This document shows positions 4,563-63,397 of a DNA stretch of 64,000 nt, in pieces. The notes beneath the pieces were generated by a model that saw only the letters and a program-made list of their open reading frames with translations, was not told where the DNA came from and did no database searches. Numbering within the stretch: position 1 is the stretch's first letter; every line of letters starts with the position of its first letter. Position numbers and translations under genes: made by a program. This stretch comes from Hysterangium stoloniferum (taxonomy: Eukaryota > Basidiomycota > Agaricomycetes > Hysterangiales > Hysterangiaceae). Location of the stretch: positions 558,001 to 622,000 of the forward strand of contig WHVD01000039.1 in NCBI GenBank assembly GCA_015178975.1, given 5' to 3'.

Positions 4563-4605
4563 AAAGTCGGATCAGAGACTTGGGGTGGAAAGTCAGATCA
4601 GAGAT

Positions 4606-4893
4606 GGGAGTCTGACTGGGAGTCTGACTGGGAGTCTGACTGGGAGTCTGACTGGGAGTCTGACTGGGAGTCTGACTGGGAGTCTGACTGGGAGTCTGAC
4701 TGGGAGTCTGACTGGGAGTCTGACTGGGAGTCTGACTGGGAGTCTGACTGGGAGTCTGACTGGGAGTCTGACTGGGAGTCTGACTGGGAGTCTGACTGGG
4801 AGTCTGACTGGGAGTCTGACTGGGAGTCTGACTGGGAGTCTGACTGGGAGTCTGACTGGGAGTCTGACTGGGAGTCTGACTGGGAGTCTGACT
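4606..4893. repeat. 12-bp tandem repeat, 24 identical copies
   Basis: The unit GGGAGTCTGACT is repeated 24 times without a visible change over 288 bp. The translation (SLTG repeats on one strand, SQTP on the other) is a by-product of the 12-bp period. Confidence 0.97.
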
Positions 4894-6037
4894 GGAAGTC
4901 ACCTTGAAGGGATGAGGATCAGGTTCCAGTGGATTCCGGATCTTGATACTGGTCCAGAAGATGGTTTGGACCCAGAGATAATATCCAGGAAATACTCTGA
5001 AGAGTTTCTGGGAACAGATCTTCACAGTTCTGTCACATGTCACATCCAATCGTGGATCCGAGTTTGTCTCTCATTTCTTTAGGTCACTCAGAAAAGCACT
5101 AGACATAAAGTTACACTTCACTTTGGGCTATCACCCGGAAGGTGATGGCCAAACCGAACACATGAATTAAACTTTGGAACAGTACATTCATGTCTATTGT
5201 AACTATCAACAAGATAATTGGGAAATCACTACTACTGCTAGCTGAATTTGCATATAACAATGCACTGAACACCACTACTGGTATTTCGCCTTTCTTCACA
5301 AACAAAGGCTACAACCCCAATATCACAATCCACCCAGAACACAATCTCGCATCCACCCATGCTCAAGGCTTTGTTACAAACCTTGAGAGCTACATCAAGA
5401 ACTTCGAAAAACTATTGCAATGGCCCAAGAATGATACCAACAGTCCGTGGATAAGAATCAACTTCCACCTCCTGATTTTGAGATTGGAGACCGAGTATTC
5501 ATTAAAGCTGAGTTTTTCTGAACTACTAGACCTTCTAAGAAGCTCTCTGAAAAATATTTAGGTCCTTTTGAAGTTATAGCACAAGCCGGCACACTTTCAT
5601 GGACACTTCAGCTTCCCGACAACATGCATGCAGTGCACCCAGTATTTCATGTATCTATGTTAGAATCATGTGTTGCTAACAATATACCAGATCACATACA
5701 ACCACCACCTCCACCGGTGATTATTGATGGAGAACCCGAATTTGAGATATCAGAAATCCTAGATTCCAAAATCGACAATTGCCGACGCTCATGCAAATTA
5801 CTTTATTTGGTCAAATGGGCTGGCTATGAAGGTACAGATGAAGAAACTTCATGGATCCTAGCTACAGAACTCGGCAATGCATCAGAAATCATCTTAGGCT
5901 TTCATCAAGCATATCTGAATAAACCCAGTCCCTTAGGTTCTCTATAGTTTCATGTGGCATCTGACCCCTTTTCTGACTATGTCTTATGTTTTCACATTTT
6001 GTTGTTTTGTTTTAAAAAGAAAACCATTATATTTCAA

Positions 6038-59819: not shown

Positions 59820-60662
59820 ATGCAATCCATTACGGTGGAAACCGCCTTCAGTCTCCGTAAGTCATGCTAGCAAGGCAATTATCCCATATTTCTTAATCAG
59901 GTTTCATTGACCTTTAGTTGACACCCTGACTGTTAAGTCGGTTCTCGCGTCTCAAGTTCGAACACTAGAAGAAGACATTATTTTATTTCAAGATCGTTTT
60001 CATCACGTCGGCTGGCTGTCTTCAGTCGTATGATTTTTCACTCTCCATCTACCGGGGTCTGGATCGCTCAATGCCGCCACAGACAGCCTTTCTTTCCGCC
60101 GTGAATCCCCAGTTCATTTCATTCACTTTCCAAAAAGAATCACACAATTATACAAAAGGCTGCAAATGCCACCATTCTGCTGGGAGTCATCTTCAATGTC
60201 GTAGGTGCGGTATTCAGCTTTGGTGTAGCAAGCTCAATCCCCAGCATTAATGCAGAATATAAGGCTTATAAGGAGGCCACAGAAGCACTAGAGCGCATGG
60301 CCATTAATGTAGATTCGTCTCGGGCCATTGATGTGACGAAGCTCCCACCTGAACAGTTGTGGCTTTGGAAAAGGGACCACTACGCAATGTCAGGTTCATG
60401 TTCATCACAAGCAAAAATATTCGGCGCTGGAATCGCCTGTCTTTGGTTGGGGTTCGTATTCTTTTTATTTGAGACTCAAAACCTTGAGATAATCCTTACA
60501 GTACTGCTGATCGTTGTCGTCGTCGAAGTATTGAATGCTCCTGGATCGCACGGAGGCGTATCCGATGATATCGGCAAGGTAGCGATCGGAAAGACGACGG
60601 CAATTTCAAGCAACTTGTCTTTAGAAAACGTGAGAATTTGCTCCTGGCTGTATATAATATGA
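59820..60662 (+). CDS. Small orphan membrane protein
   Basis: Three exons are inferred (59,820-59,856; 59,918-60,024; 60,159-60,662), in phase, for about 215 residues. A short N-terminal helix with charged residues (LASQVRTLEEDIILFQDRFH) precedes three hydrophobic segments: ATILLGVIFNVVGAVFSFGV, IFGAGIACLWLGFVFFLF and LEIILTVLLIVVVVEVLN. The loop between the first two is charged (EYKAYKEATEALERM). I do not recognise the family. The last codons may be intron, because GTGAGA follows LSLEN near 60,628, so the C-terminus is uncertain. Confidence 0.5.
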
Positions 60663-62065
60663 TGTAATGTGCACTGTGTATAAGGAATGGTGACTCCGAT
60701 GAGAATAATTCAATATTTGCCTTAATAATTACATTGGCAGACAGTGTGAGAGAGAATAAGTTACTATTATACCTCTTAATGAGTGCCAGCTTCAAGAAGA
60801 ATTCGGAGCTTCTCGCTGTAATTCGAGACGCGGTGCCGGGTTTGTTGTTGCGTATCTGGTGTTTTTTATGATAGCTATACTGGCGTGATTTTTATATGTT
60901 AGACCATAATAATTTCTATCTCAGTGGTGTTACTTCATCGTGACATTAACCTAGGAAATCTGCCTTCAAGGAGACGACACTGCGAAATTCTGTGGACGAC
61001 TAATAGATCTTGACAATAGCAACCCCTCCCCCTCCTGAACCTGAAAGACCCTCAGTTTGGGAGATTAGGAAACTTGTGTCGTTATTATTTTTAATCAATT
61101 GCTTGTTGTTAGAAGCCGATGCAAGAGATTGTGAGGAGGTGGGGTAAACGGAGCTCACGCTATTAACCTCAAATTAATTGGCCAATGATAGTTCCTGAAG
61201 CCTTGTGCTGCCATCTTCAGATATTTCGATGGATATCCATAGAATACCCTTCTGATCGGTAGATGAAACAATATGGCAGAAGTCAACGTGTACCACTATC
61301 AAAAACCACATCTTTGAGTAATATGCAGATCTTGATGGATAGAACTTTGGTGCTGATTAGGATAATCTGGGCAGTCGCACCAGTCACAGCATGCACGACA
61401 CATTGGCTCTACTAGAAACACGCGACTTTGCTGCGTGAATGCTACTTGAGATTCCTTTCCATGTTGGCTCACCTGGCCTAATCTCACCTTGAAGATCGGA
61501 AACGAGTAGCGGGTGAGCGTTCGCTACAGCTAGTTATAACCTATCTCCGAGCTGAATATCATGACAACATCCAGGTATATTTATAACAAACTATGACGGG
61601 CAGTGAATGCCCGTACTAGATACGTTAGTAGCTACAGATGTACATGAGTGCCCATGAAGGGACAAAGCTCACCTCAGTCGCTGCCTAGGAGGGCTATAGA
61701 AACGACTGAGGGGGTAAAAATGAAAAAAGGTTATACTTATATACGCGGGTGGAAACCAAGTTCGTGACACGAGGTGAGGCTTAATGTCCAGTCTGATGCG
61801 AGACTTACGTATTACAATAGACCTCCGGATGTTTCTGGATCTTCATCGTCCACCATCGTCTTGCTGTATGGACACCGACAAATCCGATCCAGCAGGGAAA
61901 CCTGCTGGCCCCGGTACACCCACCCAACCGTATACTACCCACCACTGGGTCACCAAGATTCTTAGAGTTCGATGCACGCGTAGGTCGGCACGAATCAACT
62001 ATCTTATCACTCCCTTTGGACCAGGCTCAGTAGTAGGCTCCTAATCAGTAATTCTGGACGGGCGA
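60663..62065. other. Intergenic region leading to the ribozyme
   Basis: No gene was recognised. Two hairpins stand out: ACGGGC-7 nt-GCCCGT at 61,596-61,614, and a 9-bp perfect stem CCTCAGTCG/CGACTGAGG with a 22-nt loop at 61,672-61,711. The open frame at 61,784-62,044 shows no protein family. The region from about 61,560 is more GC-rich than its surroundings and may be part of one structured element with the ribozyme. Confidence 0.4.
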
Positions 62066-62121
62066 AACGGTCGGGGTAGCGGTATCCCCCTGATGAGAGC
62101 TCTCGTCGGCTCGAAACCGTT
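62066..62121 (+). ncRNA. Type III hammerhead ribozyme (predicted)
   Basis: The sequence meets every requirement of the hammerhead fold. Stem III is AACGGT (62,066-62,071) with ACCGTT (62,116-62,121). The cleavage triplet is GTC at 62,070-62,072, with the cut expected after 62,072. Stem I is GGGG (62,073-62,076) with CCCC (62,086-62,089) and a 9-nt loop. The core CTGATGA lies at 62,090-62,096. Stem II is GAGC (62,097-62,100) with GCTC (62,109-62,112) and an 8-nt loop, and the second core piece GAA at 62,113-62,115 joins stem III. Stems I and II are closed and stem III is open, so it is type III. Such ribozymes cut their own RNA and are known from viroid-like RNAs and small retroelements. Confidence 0.88.
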
Positions 62122-62807
62122 ACTATCCCGTTTCCCCTAGCCACCCTCTACACTAGCTGACAAAGTTCAATCTTCGGAGACAACTGATTGCGGCGAGTGA
62201 TAAGGTGGTGGTCTGCCCAGCGGCGCTCTGGTGGACGCTGGTGACCTCGCGTTGTCAAGGTCACCTGGCTATTACCTGCATCTCAAATTTTGCATGGTAT
62301 TTTTGTCAACTTCTCTGGAATAACTAGAGAACCGTGACATCACCCAGAAGTCACTTTAAATAATAAATTCTTGAGACCCACAATATTTTGAGGCAATTTC
62401 AGTAAACTGGTGTGGCTCAAAGTGTCTGAGCTGATGTAGAGCCGAGTAATTGGTTGTTGCGTGATGTTGCGTTGTGACGTCACGCGAATCGTGAGGGTTA
62501 ACTCCAAGTCTTCAACGCGGCTGGCGTAACTGAGACCTCTTATTTTGTGTCCTCATTACAACATGAAAAAAGAACCAAGGGAAGACCCCTTGGTATTGTA
62601 AGTTTTGGTACACATACTGTGGTACTTGAATCTTGATTGACTATGCAATCCTTTATCCCAGGTATGCTGCCAAACGCAACATCATAACCTATCATCATCC
62701 TCAGACACAAACTCCAGCTCATTAGTGACCACCTTATTCGTCATTTCTTTAGCTTTCAAAATACATAAAGGCTTTGGTTCTATGCTGGCAACCCAAATCA
62801 AACAACA
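62122..62807. other. Spacer and promoter region of the Hsp20 gene
   Basis: No gene was found. A minus-strand frame at 62,540-62,722 is unsupported. The last 70 bp before the start codon contain an AT-rich CATAAAGG stretch that could serve as a TATA element. I saw no convincing heat-shock element. Confidence 0.4.
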
Positions 62808-63397
62808 ATGTCGCTCTCGAATTTCCATTATGATCCTTTTTATGAGCCGTTCTATACGGTTTCGGATTTCAATCGTCTATTGAACAATGCGGGACCTTAC
62901 CAGAGCACGAATCGCGACCTATTTAGGAATGATGAGTATGCAGGAACCCAAGGAGTTATACGTCCCAGGTATTTTCATGTCATTCTGTCTATAAAATCAA
63001 TGCATTAACTTCGAATACTTTGAACTAGAATGAATCTTCACGGCGACTACGTTACAGGTGAAATGACGGCGACCTTTGAACTTCCCGGCCTGAGACGTGA
63101 GGATGTCAACGTCGATGTCATCAACAACAGGCTTGTCGTCTCTGGATCGGCCGAGGGCGTCGTGGAAGTAGATGAGGCAGGGTATGCTGTGCGAGAAAGG
63201 ACCTATGGCAGGTTTTCAAGGACGGTTCCATTGCCTGCCGGGACGAAAGTGAGTAGAAATATCTTTTGTGTTAAATGATAATGTTAATACTTTGTTTTCA
63301 TCAGCCCAGCGAAATTGATGCGCGAGTGGCAGATGGCATTTTGACCGTTAGATTTCCTCAGCAACAAGCAACCGAGGAGAGAATTATAGTTTCCTAA
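62808..63397 (+). CDS. Small heat shock protein, Hsp20 family
   Basis: Three exons (62,808-62,968; 63,029-63,248; 63,305-63,397) join in phase to 157 residues, the normal length. The alpha-crystallin domain covers about residues 50-155: MTATFELPGLRREDVNVDVI, NRLVVSGSAEG, the RTYGRFSRTVPLPAGTK block, then IDARVADGILTVRFP with the conserved GxLT-type motif. An aromatic-rich N-terminal arm (FHYDPFYEPFYTVSDF) and a short tail with the I-x-V motif (ERIIVS) complete the family pattern, used for building oligomers. These ATP-independent chaperones hold unfolding proteins in the cytosol. The gene looks intact. Confidence 0.92.

Follow-up and report, generated by a model that had tools for sequence, protein, structure and literature searches.

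Type III hammerhead ribozymes, as set out in the excerpted part of a survey, have been described chiefly in plants and in RNAs that are circular and infectious, and in prokaryotes too (PMC7761336). In excerpts of the corresponding papers, plant retrozymes are described as having LTRs with two hammerheads and 4-bp target-site duplications (TSDs) (PMC4918200), hammerheads of Yarrowia lipolytica are associated with a many-copy interspersed repeat (PMC3088659), and Pleurotus ostreatus is credited with five Hammerhead_3 Rfam hits of 55 nt, three of them on one scaffold (PMC5040776). Further excerpts report that ambiviruses carry hammerheads into fungi as RNA (PMC10162972) and that transcripts matching Rfam hammerheads were removed in a mushroom transcriptome study (PMC8893723). 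It is a puzzle that small mobile RNAs retain a ribozyme, since cleavage would destroy the template for their own copying. Here, we addressed a hammerhead in the genome of Hysterangium stoloniferum, found within a 64,000-nt stretch of DNA (hereafter the window), and the repeat that carries it. Several features of this genome make the puzzle testable in one organism: young copies have intact motifs, an older subfamily has GUA at the cleavage triplet, the strands of the ribozyme have a predicted rival fold, and a second repeat family holds a related module.

The hammerhead and the repeat around it

A sequence-only reading of the window had proposed a complete type III hammerhead at 62066-62121 with stems of 6, 4 and 4 bp, and this is borne out by the sequence, by a full-length Rfam match and by a strict descriptor. 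All the parts that define the type are present on the + strand: the core strands CUGAUGA (CUGANGA in general form) and GAA, an NUH triplet, here GUC, with the predicted break after 62072, and three stems, namely stem III of 6 bp (AACGGU/ACCGUU) with an open end, stem I (GGGG/CCCC) with a loop of 9 nt, and stem II (GAGC/GCUC) with a loop of 8 nt and a possible fifth pair U-G. Rfam Hammerhead_3 (RF00008) matched over its full length (1-54) with 31.9 bits and E 4.1e-5 (Infernal; 401-bp stretch, 4227 families), below the Rfam gathering score of 48.5, and a scan of the whole window at gathering threshold reported no families. The strict descriptor, which asks for the core, NUH and minimum lengths of 4, 4 and 5 bp for stems I, II and III, was applied to both strands and found this one site in the window, with no site in any of 500 dinucleotide-shuffled windows. 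A looser pattern, CTGATGA-N{8,38}-CGAAAC, gave one match in the window, with at least one match in 8 of 100 shuffles, and 164 matches in the genome versus 46 for its reversed control. A chance motif is ruled out by the Rfam match, the genome excess over the reversed control and the shuffled windows taken together. A genome-wide Rfam search was set aside: of its 19387 candidates 68 were scored, the window copy was not recovered, and 7 of 14 control genomes also gave sub-cut-off matches. Judged by its sequence, the window motif is a type III hammerhead with predicted self-cleavage. The Hsp20 neighbour named in the sequence-only reading was recovered (PF00011, E 1.1e-9, 63024-63278), and the open reading frame at 60105-60662 had no Pfam match. 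Elsewhere in the window, 4605-4900 holds a 12-bp unit, TGGGAGTCTGAC, repeated 24.7 times at 99%.

The assertion that the motif lies alone, with no recognised mobile element, does not hold, since it sits inside a ~424-bp interspersed repeat at 61849-62272 (+) with ~127 listed places on 82 contigs of the 111-Mb genome; the option of an undescribed small element is supported for the same reason. A genome search with 2.1 kb around the motif confined the repetition to about these limits, which rest on 39 listed matches and on ends read from the flanks, although the two preceding bases (CG, 61847-61848) may be part of the element too. A lone intergenic ribozyme is ruled out, the surroundings being repeated as well, out to 61849 and 62272. 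Among 223 candidates for the window query 40 matches were listed; leaving out that of the window with itself, the remaining 39 have 93-98% identity and fall within 61840-62281, mostly within 61847-62276. The figure of ~127 comes from 129 merged clusters, two elements with far-apart ends having been counted twice; from the looser-pattern matches only hand-picked, family-like ones were merged, and the second repeat family described below (class C) was left out. At least two kinds of evidence back 92 of the 129 clusters, and 19 rest solely on an exact 18-mer of the 5′ end, the reversed control of which gave 0 matches; the true copy number is probably above the number of listed places. Two length classes are seen, 413-424 and 457-487 bp. 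The window copy belongs to subfamily A, the young copies of which have a mean pairwise identity of 97%; subfamily B, longer (~480 bp) and with a consensus 88% identical to that of A, is the older one. Its search listed 40 of 198 candidates, query included, and the match on contig C367 is also among the listed A matches. Copies occur in pairs on C546 and C519, a few kb apart and in opposite orientation. Three copies (C90:7090, C196:7327 and C235:782043), all of 420 bp, have a stem II loop shorter by 3 nt (GAGCTCTCGGCTC) and are perhaps one duplicated segment.

Both ends of the element are fixed. The 5′ end TCCACCA (61849-61855, +) is complementary to TGGTGGA at 62229-62235, and the two form the closing stem of the predicted RNA, found as inverted repeat I5 and in the free fold. 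The 3′ end (62240-62272, +) is a terminal hairpin, GGTGACCT...AGGTCACC, followed by TGGCTAT; its pattern has 101 genome matches, 100 of them listed with positions, against 0 for the reversed control. Out of 78 exact 5′ ends in the genome, 54 are followed by the 3′ hairpin, 53 of these at 413-487 bp and one at 1684 bp (C531:175282-176966). At C146:391279-392056 a distance of 778 bp, where ~390 is usual, separates the 5′ end from the distal edge of the 3′ 31-mer; both wide spacings could be insertions or a longer, possibly autonomous, relative. The other 24 exact 5′ ends, e.g. C10:8929, C13:48856 and C17:72453, have no recognised 3′ hairpin within 3 kb and are decayed, truncated or related to something else. 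Head-to-tail copies were absent, no two of the 78 exact 5′ ends lying within 5 kb on one contig. Among the 40 listed of 145 candidates in a search with the 3′ end, no partner element with the same 3′ end was recognised; 39 are element copies by other evidence, and the remaining one is C24:847488.

Junctions were analysed in 37 copies, the remainder of 47 collected loci once 10 segmental duplicates or truncated copies had been removed. All 15 copies with a TCGC loop have T as the base following CTA, and the 21 with the other loop have A in 18 cases, T in 2 and G in 1, one further copy being unclassed; since it is specific to subfamily and loop, this base (T at 62272 in the window) counts as part of the element. 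The 5′ junction is ragged by 0-2 nt, with G at -1 in 17/37 copies and CG in 8/37, while base -1 is A in 8/37, base +1 is T in 18/37, and the base following the 3′ end is A or T in 29/37. No consistent TSD was detected in the 37 copies, the mean near-junction match being 2.03 versus 1.83 ± 0.16 in shuffled pairs. With the terminal base taken as element, the longest word shared by the 25-bp flanks averages 4.46 versus 4.15 ± 0.15 (reached in 9 of 300 shuffles), and without locus L081, which lies within a tandem repeat, 4.28 versus 4.14 ± 0.16 (60 of 300); possible short duplications near the junction are seen at L050 (8 bp) and L033 (6 bp). No A-rich tail was found at the element ends. Among 47 joined flanks searched, an element-free paralogue emerged for copy L063 (C1:1133805) alone, L056 having matched its own inverted flank. 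This empty site, a paralogue of the host repeat that received L063, lies in the window itself, at 32952-32707 (-), where 204 of 251 columns are identical through the junction and the join is clean save a one-base gap explained by the terminal A of the element. LTR ends follow the TG...CA rule; a solo LTR was rejected on ends that are not TG...CA and on the lack of a consistent TSD. A tRNA-derived SINE was likewise rejected: the B-box match in the subfamily A consensus is absent in B, and neither consensus has an A-box match.

Competing folds and the state of the ribozyme

With RNA parameters, unusual stability of the RNA from the window copy is confined to the hammerhead strand (z -3.9 for the + strand, -1.6 for the - strand, versus shuffles), and this asymmetry is gone with DNA parameters (-1.7 and -2.3; 60 shuffles). 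The hairpin CCAGCAGG-GAAA-CCTGCTGG at 61889-61908 (+) is present in the free fold and in RNAalifold on 25 copies, one of its pairs changing from G-C to A-U in 2 copies. Around the ribozyme a rod-like alternative fold that excludes the hammerhead (62064-62134, +) is indicated by minimum free energy, by pairing and covariation, and by RNAalifold. Its outer stem pairs 62064-62070 with 62128-62134, its inner stem pairs loop 1 (62077-62083) with 62116-62122, and its hairpin pairs 62090-62097 with 62102-62109, so that the core CUGAUGAG folds onto CUCGUCGG. For 62041-62175 the nearest-neighbour energies, which are reckoned without tertiary contacts, are -45.0 kcal/mol for the optimum versus -27.7 with the hammerhead enforced, a gap of 17 kcal/mol. 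For 25 copies (8/8 full-length B and 17/29 non-duplicate A), RNAalifold predicts 110 pairs. Double changes occur in nine of them, the covariation term is small (-0.73), and around the ribozyme the program picks the rod over the hammerhead.

The sequence-only reading had itself named a covariance score below threshold and unconserved pairing as outcomes that would speak against it: the score indeed falls below (31.9 versus 48.5), but the pairing is conserved, 96.1% of stem cells being paired in 26 distinct hammerhead segments with compensation in stem III. These segments come from 28 found, L073 and L081 being excluded as rearranged or deleted around stem I; compensatory changes affect three stem III pairs, in one sequence each (L079, L077 and L087), and 9 of 500 shuffles have as many. 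On the 25 A and B copies the hammerhead has 97.4% of cells paired and 2 double-change pairs, with a covariation score reached by 19 of 500 shuffles, and the rod has 98.0% and 3, with a score reached by 0 of 500. When class C is included (26 segments), the inner part of the rod is weaker, its double-change count being reached by 78 of 500 shuffles, partly because L067 and L079 break it. As far as comparison of the copies goes, both folds are supported, the rod at least as well as the hammerhead; the modelled rod counts against constitutive cleavage and could account for part of the core conservation.

Strictly intact hammerheads are carried by 29/35 loci in A, 4/12 in B and 2/3 in C. These fractions are inflated, because the A loci are the closest to the window copy and because a core-containing pattern was used to choose all B loci but L001, which came from the genome-wide Rfam search. 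For non-duplicate A loci brought in by similarity to the window query the count is 21/24, or 23/27 with L018, L024 and L030 from the other A search. Position 62072 is C (GUC) in 29/29 non-duplicate A copies, A (GUA) in 8/8 full-length B copies and T in the duplicate locus L035; GUA and GUU triplets are cleavable too. Minority letters make up 16 of 1613 in the hammerhead versus 197 of 10616 elsewhere in subfamily A, and 20 of 445 versus 199 of 2878 in B. In A, the neighbouring stretches 62041-62065 and 62176-62236 are as conserved as the hammerhead, and therefore its conservation is no proof of selection on the ribozyme.

Proposed origin and mode of copying

The interpretation we favour, and hold to be moderately probable, is a non-autonomous element of ~424 bp (~480 bp in the older subfamily) copied through RNA and bearing near its middle a type III hammerhead that is switchable, being so read because the competing rod-like fold hides it. 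The element would be transcribed on the hammerhead strand, and its RNA would fold as a branched rod, closed by pairing between the 5′ end and a stretch near the 3′ end, with the 3′ hairpin left free; the reverse transcriptase of another retroelement would take that 3′ end and copy the RNA into A/T-flanked sites. Full-length copies would require an uncut template. The rod would use the stem III strands and the core and thus keep the hammerhead off in the finished RNA, and a hammerhead that did fold, e.g. co-transcriptionally or in read-through RNA, would cut after 62072 and leave the element RNA in two pieces, limited or processed. The repeat is a discrete unit whose ends are fixed and whose many single copies are dispersed; this, the lack of a consistent target duplication, the empty site read through at the L063 paralogue, the stability of RNA from one strand, the strictly intact hammerheads of most subfamily A loci and the compensatory changes in stem III speak for this interpretation, and the 0-2 nt raggedness of the 5′ end fits reverse transcription better than cut-and-paste. 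Most elements driven by LINEs have an A-rich tail and a consistent duplication, neither of which is present here, and this counts against it, as do the hammerhead not being the predicted lowest-energy fold, with RNAalifold taking the rod and the rod having the stronger covariation in the 25 A and B copies, subfamily B having GUA for GUC with 4/12 loci strictly intact, neighbouring stretches being as conserved as the ribozyme, the lack of a recognised partner among the listed 3′-end matches, and the possible short duplications at L050 and L033. A tentative and somewhat unlikely proposal is that of an unfamiliar kind of ribozyme-bearing retroelement, with a single hammerhead and no LTR, duplication, tail or pol III promoter that could be recognised. 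Its conserved RNA would be bistable, switching between rod and hammerhead and so deciding between being copied and being cut, and the element would share its module with a promoter- and intron-bearing RNA family of this fungus.

Helitrons are marked by insertion at A^T, a 5′ TC and a 3′ CTRR with a hairpin. The lack of a consistent target duplication, the 5′ TC, the subterminal hairpin on the 3′ side and the CTAA that ends some of the copies would agree with a DNA-level transposon, Helitron-like or otherwise free of duplications, carrying the hammerhead as cargo, but the A^T rule fails at both flanking bases (-1 and +1, counts given above), copies with the TCGC loop end in CTAT, not CTRR, in 15/15, the 5′ end is ragged, and the strand-specific stability is a property of RNA that is absent with DNA parameters, which makes this mode of origin unlikely.

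A related hammerhead occurs in a second, otherwise unrelated repeat family, class C, at loci L067, L079 and L092, with Rfam scores of 28.1, 30.2 and 24.0, respectively; that of L067 is 53 nt long and 96% identical to the window. The order in class C is a TATAAA-type region, 30-bp repeats, a GTAAG...CTGAC...TAG stretch and then the hammerhead in sense, ~0.4 kb downstream of the TATAAA-type region in L079 and L092 and, by place, ~1.7 kb behind the matching region in L067, where the stretch is part of a 96-bp tandem unit. From these sequence features the region is a putative promoter and the stretch a putative intron. Tandem arrays of the 96-bp unit, each unit with an intron-like GTAAG...TAG, are found upstream of the hammerhead in L067 (1-1150, contig C1), on C303 and on C441, the first lying ~25 kb from the end of C1 and the C303 matches spanning ~3.3 kb. 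L067 also contains at 2185-2265 a MITE-like inverted repeat around CCCGCGGATTTTG...CAAAATCCGCGGG, and the same segment gave a sub-threshold Rfam match to a bacterial sRNA that is probably due to chance. Used as a 330-bp query, the promoter-like region gave 43 matches, of which 23 extend over 250 bp or more; C74, C64, C112, C191, C200 and C246 are among its places, and several of the places have a shorter copy of the TATA part 1.4-2.9 kb downstream, an LTR-like or gene-cluster arrangement.

It is conceivable, though quite unlikely, that the hammerhead belonged to such a class C module for the processing of a host RNA, comprising promoter-like region, repeats, intron-like stretch and sense hammerhead, and was captured by the small element. 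The sense hammerhead behind the TATAAA-type region in L079 and L092 and behind the matching region in L067 would suit a captured module, as would the ~130 bp around the L092 hammerhead that match the element at 84%, and L067 and L079 share GUC with the loop TTTCGTCG, a combination from which both subfamilies could descend. Nevertheless, by comparison of lists only ~7 of the 23 long copies of the promoter-like region have a hammerhead, a count in which two cases depend on partial or gapped matches; the hammerhead may therefore equally be an insertion there. Given these promoter- and intron-like arrangements, the ribozyme may process a host non-coding RNA, an option raised in the sequence-only reading.

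A retrozyme-like route, in which hammerhead cleavage yields monomer circles that are reverse transcribed, has in its favour that a type III hammerhead lies in an RNA that is small, non-coding and highly structured, which recalls the plant retrozymes in their excerpted description (PMC4918200). It is very unlikely, since each copy has a single hammerhead and lacks both an LTR pair and a consistent 4-bp duplication, the cleavage site does not coincide with the copy ends, and 0/78 exact 5′ ends lie within 5 kb of another, whereby the examined copies could not give circles by double cleavage. The suggestion of a copied viroid-like or virus RNA found no backing either: head-to-tail arrangements are missing among the 78 5′ ends, copies have fixed ends away from the cleavage site, two exact patterns gave 0 matches in viral contigs, a collection with an uncertain share of RNA agents, and the likeness of the rod to the fold of viroid-like RNA is one of resemblance only. 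The exact core pattern gave 0 matches in prokaryote genomes, and phage records gave no match.

Comparison with known systems

With Rfam RF00008 the window motif shares the full core, three stems, the open stem III and a full-length model match, and it differs in a score of 31.9 bits, below 48.5, and in strands that are able to form the rod. The type III hammerhead in a small non-coding repeat recalls the plant LTR retrozymes as they are given in the excerpted paper (PMC4918200), whereas the element has a single hammerhead without an LTR pair: neither paired direct repeats with hammerheads nor a consistent 4-bp TSD was found. Like SINEs, it is short, non-coding, interspersed and non-autonomous, but it has no conserved pol III A and B boxes, no consistent TSD and no A-rich or simple-repeat tail. 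The 5′ TC and the hairpin of Helitrons are present, the A^T rule and a constant CTRR are absent. Fungal precedents are the repeats of Yarrowia lipolytica, with hammerheads associated with a many-copy interspersed repeat (PMC3088659), and the loci of Pleurotus ostreatus, likewise type III in a mushroom genome and given there as Rfam hits (PMC5040776); the excerpts describe no element anatomy for the former and no mobile element for the latter. No description of this element was found in the literature covered, subscription papers being mostly outside that coverage. By these excerpts, the literature already includes type III matches from a mushroom and hammerheads within repeats of a yeast; the present copies would suggest mobile elements as a possible reason for Rfam type III matches in mushroom genomes, and the element itself we class as a hammerhead-bearing interspersed repeat, not as a retrozyme, a SINE or a Helitron.
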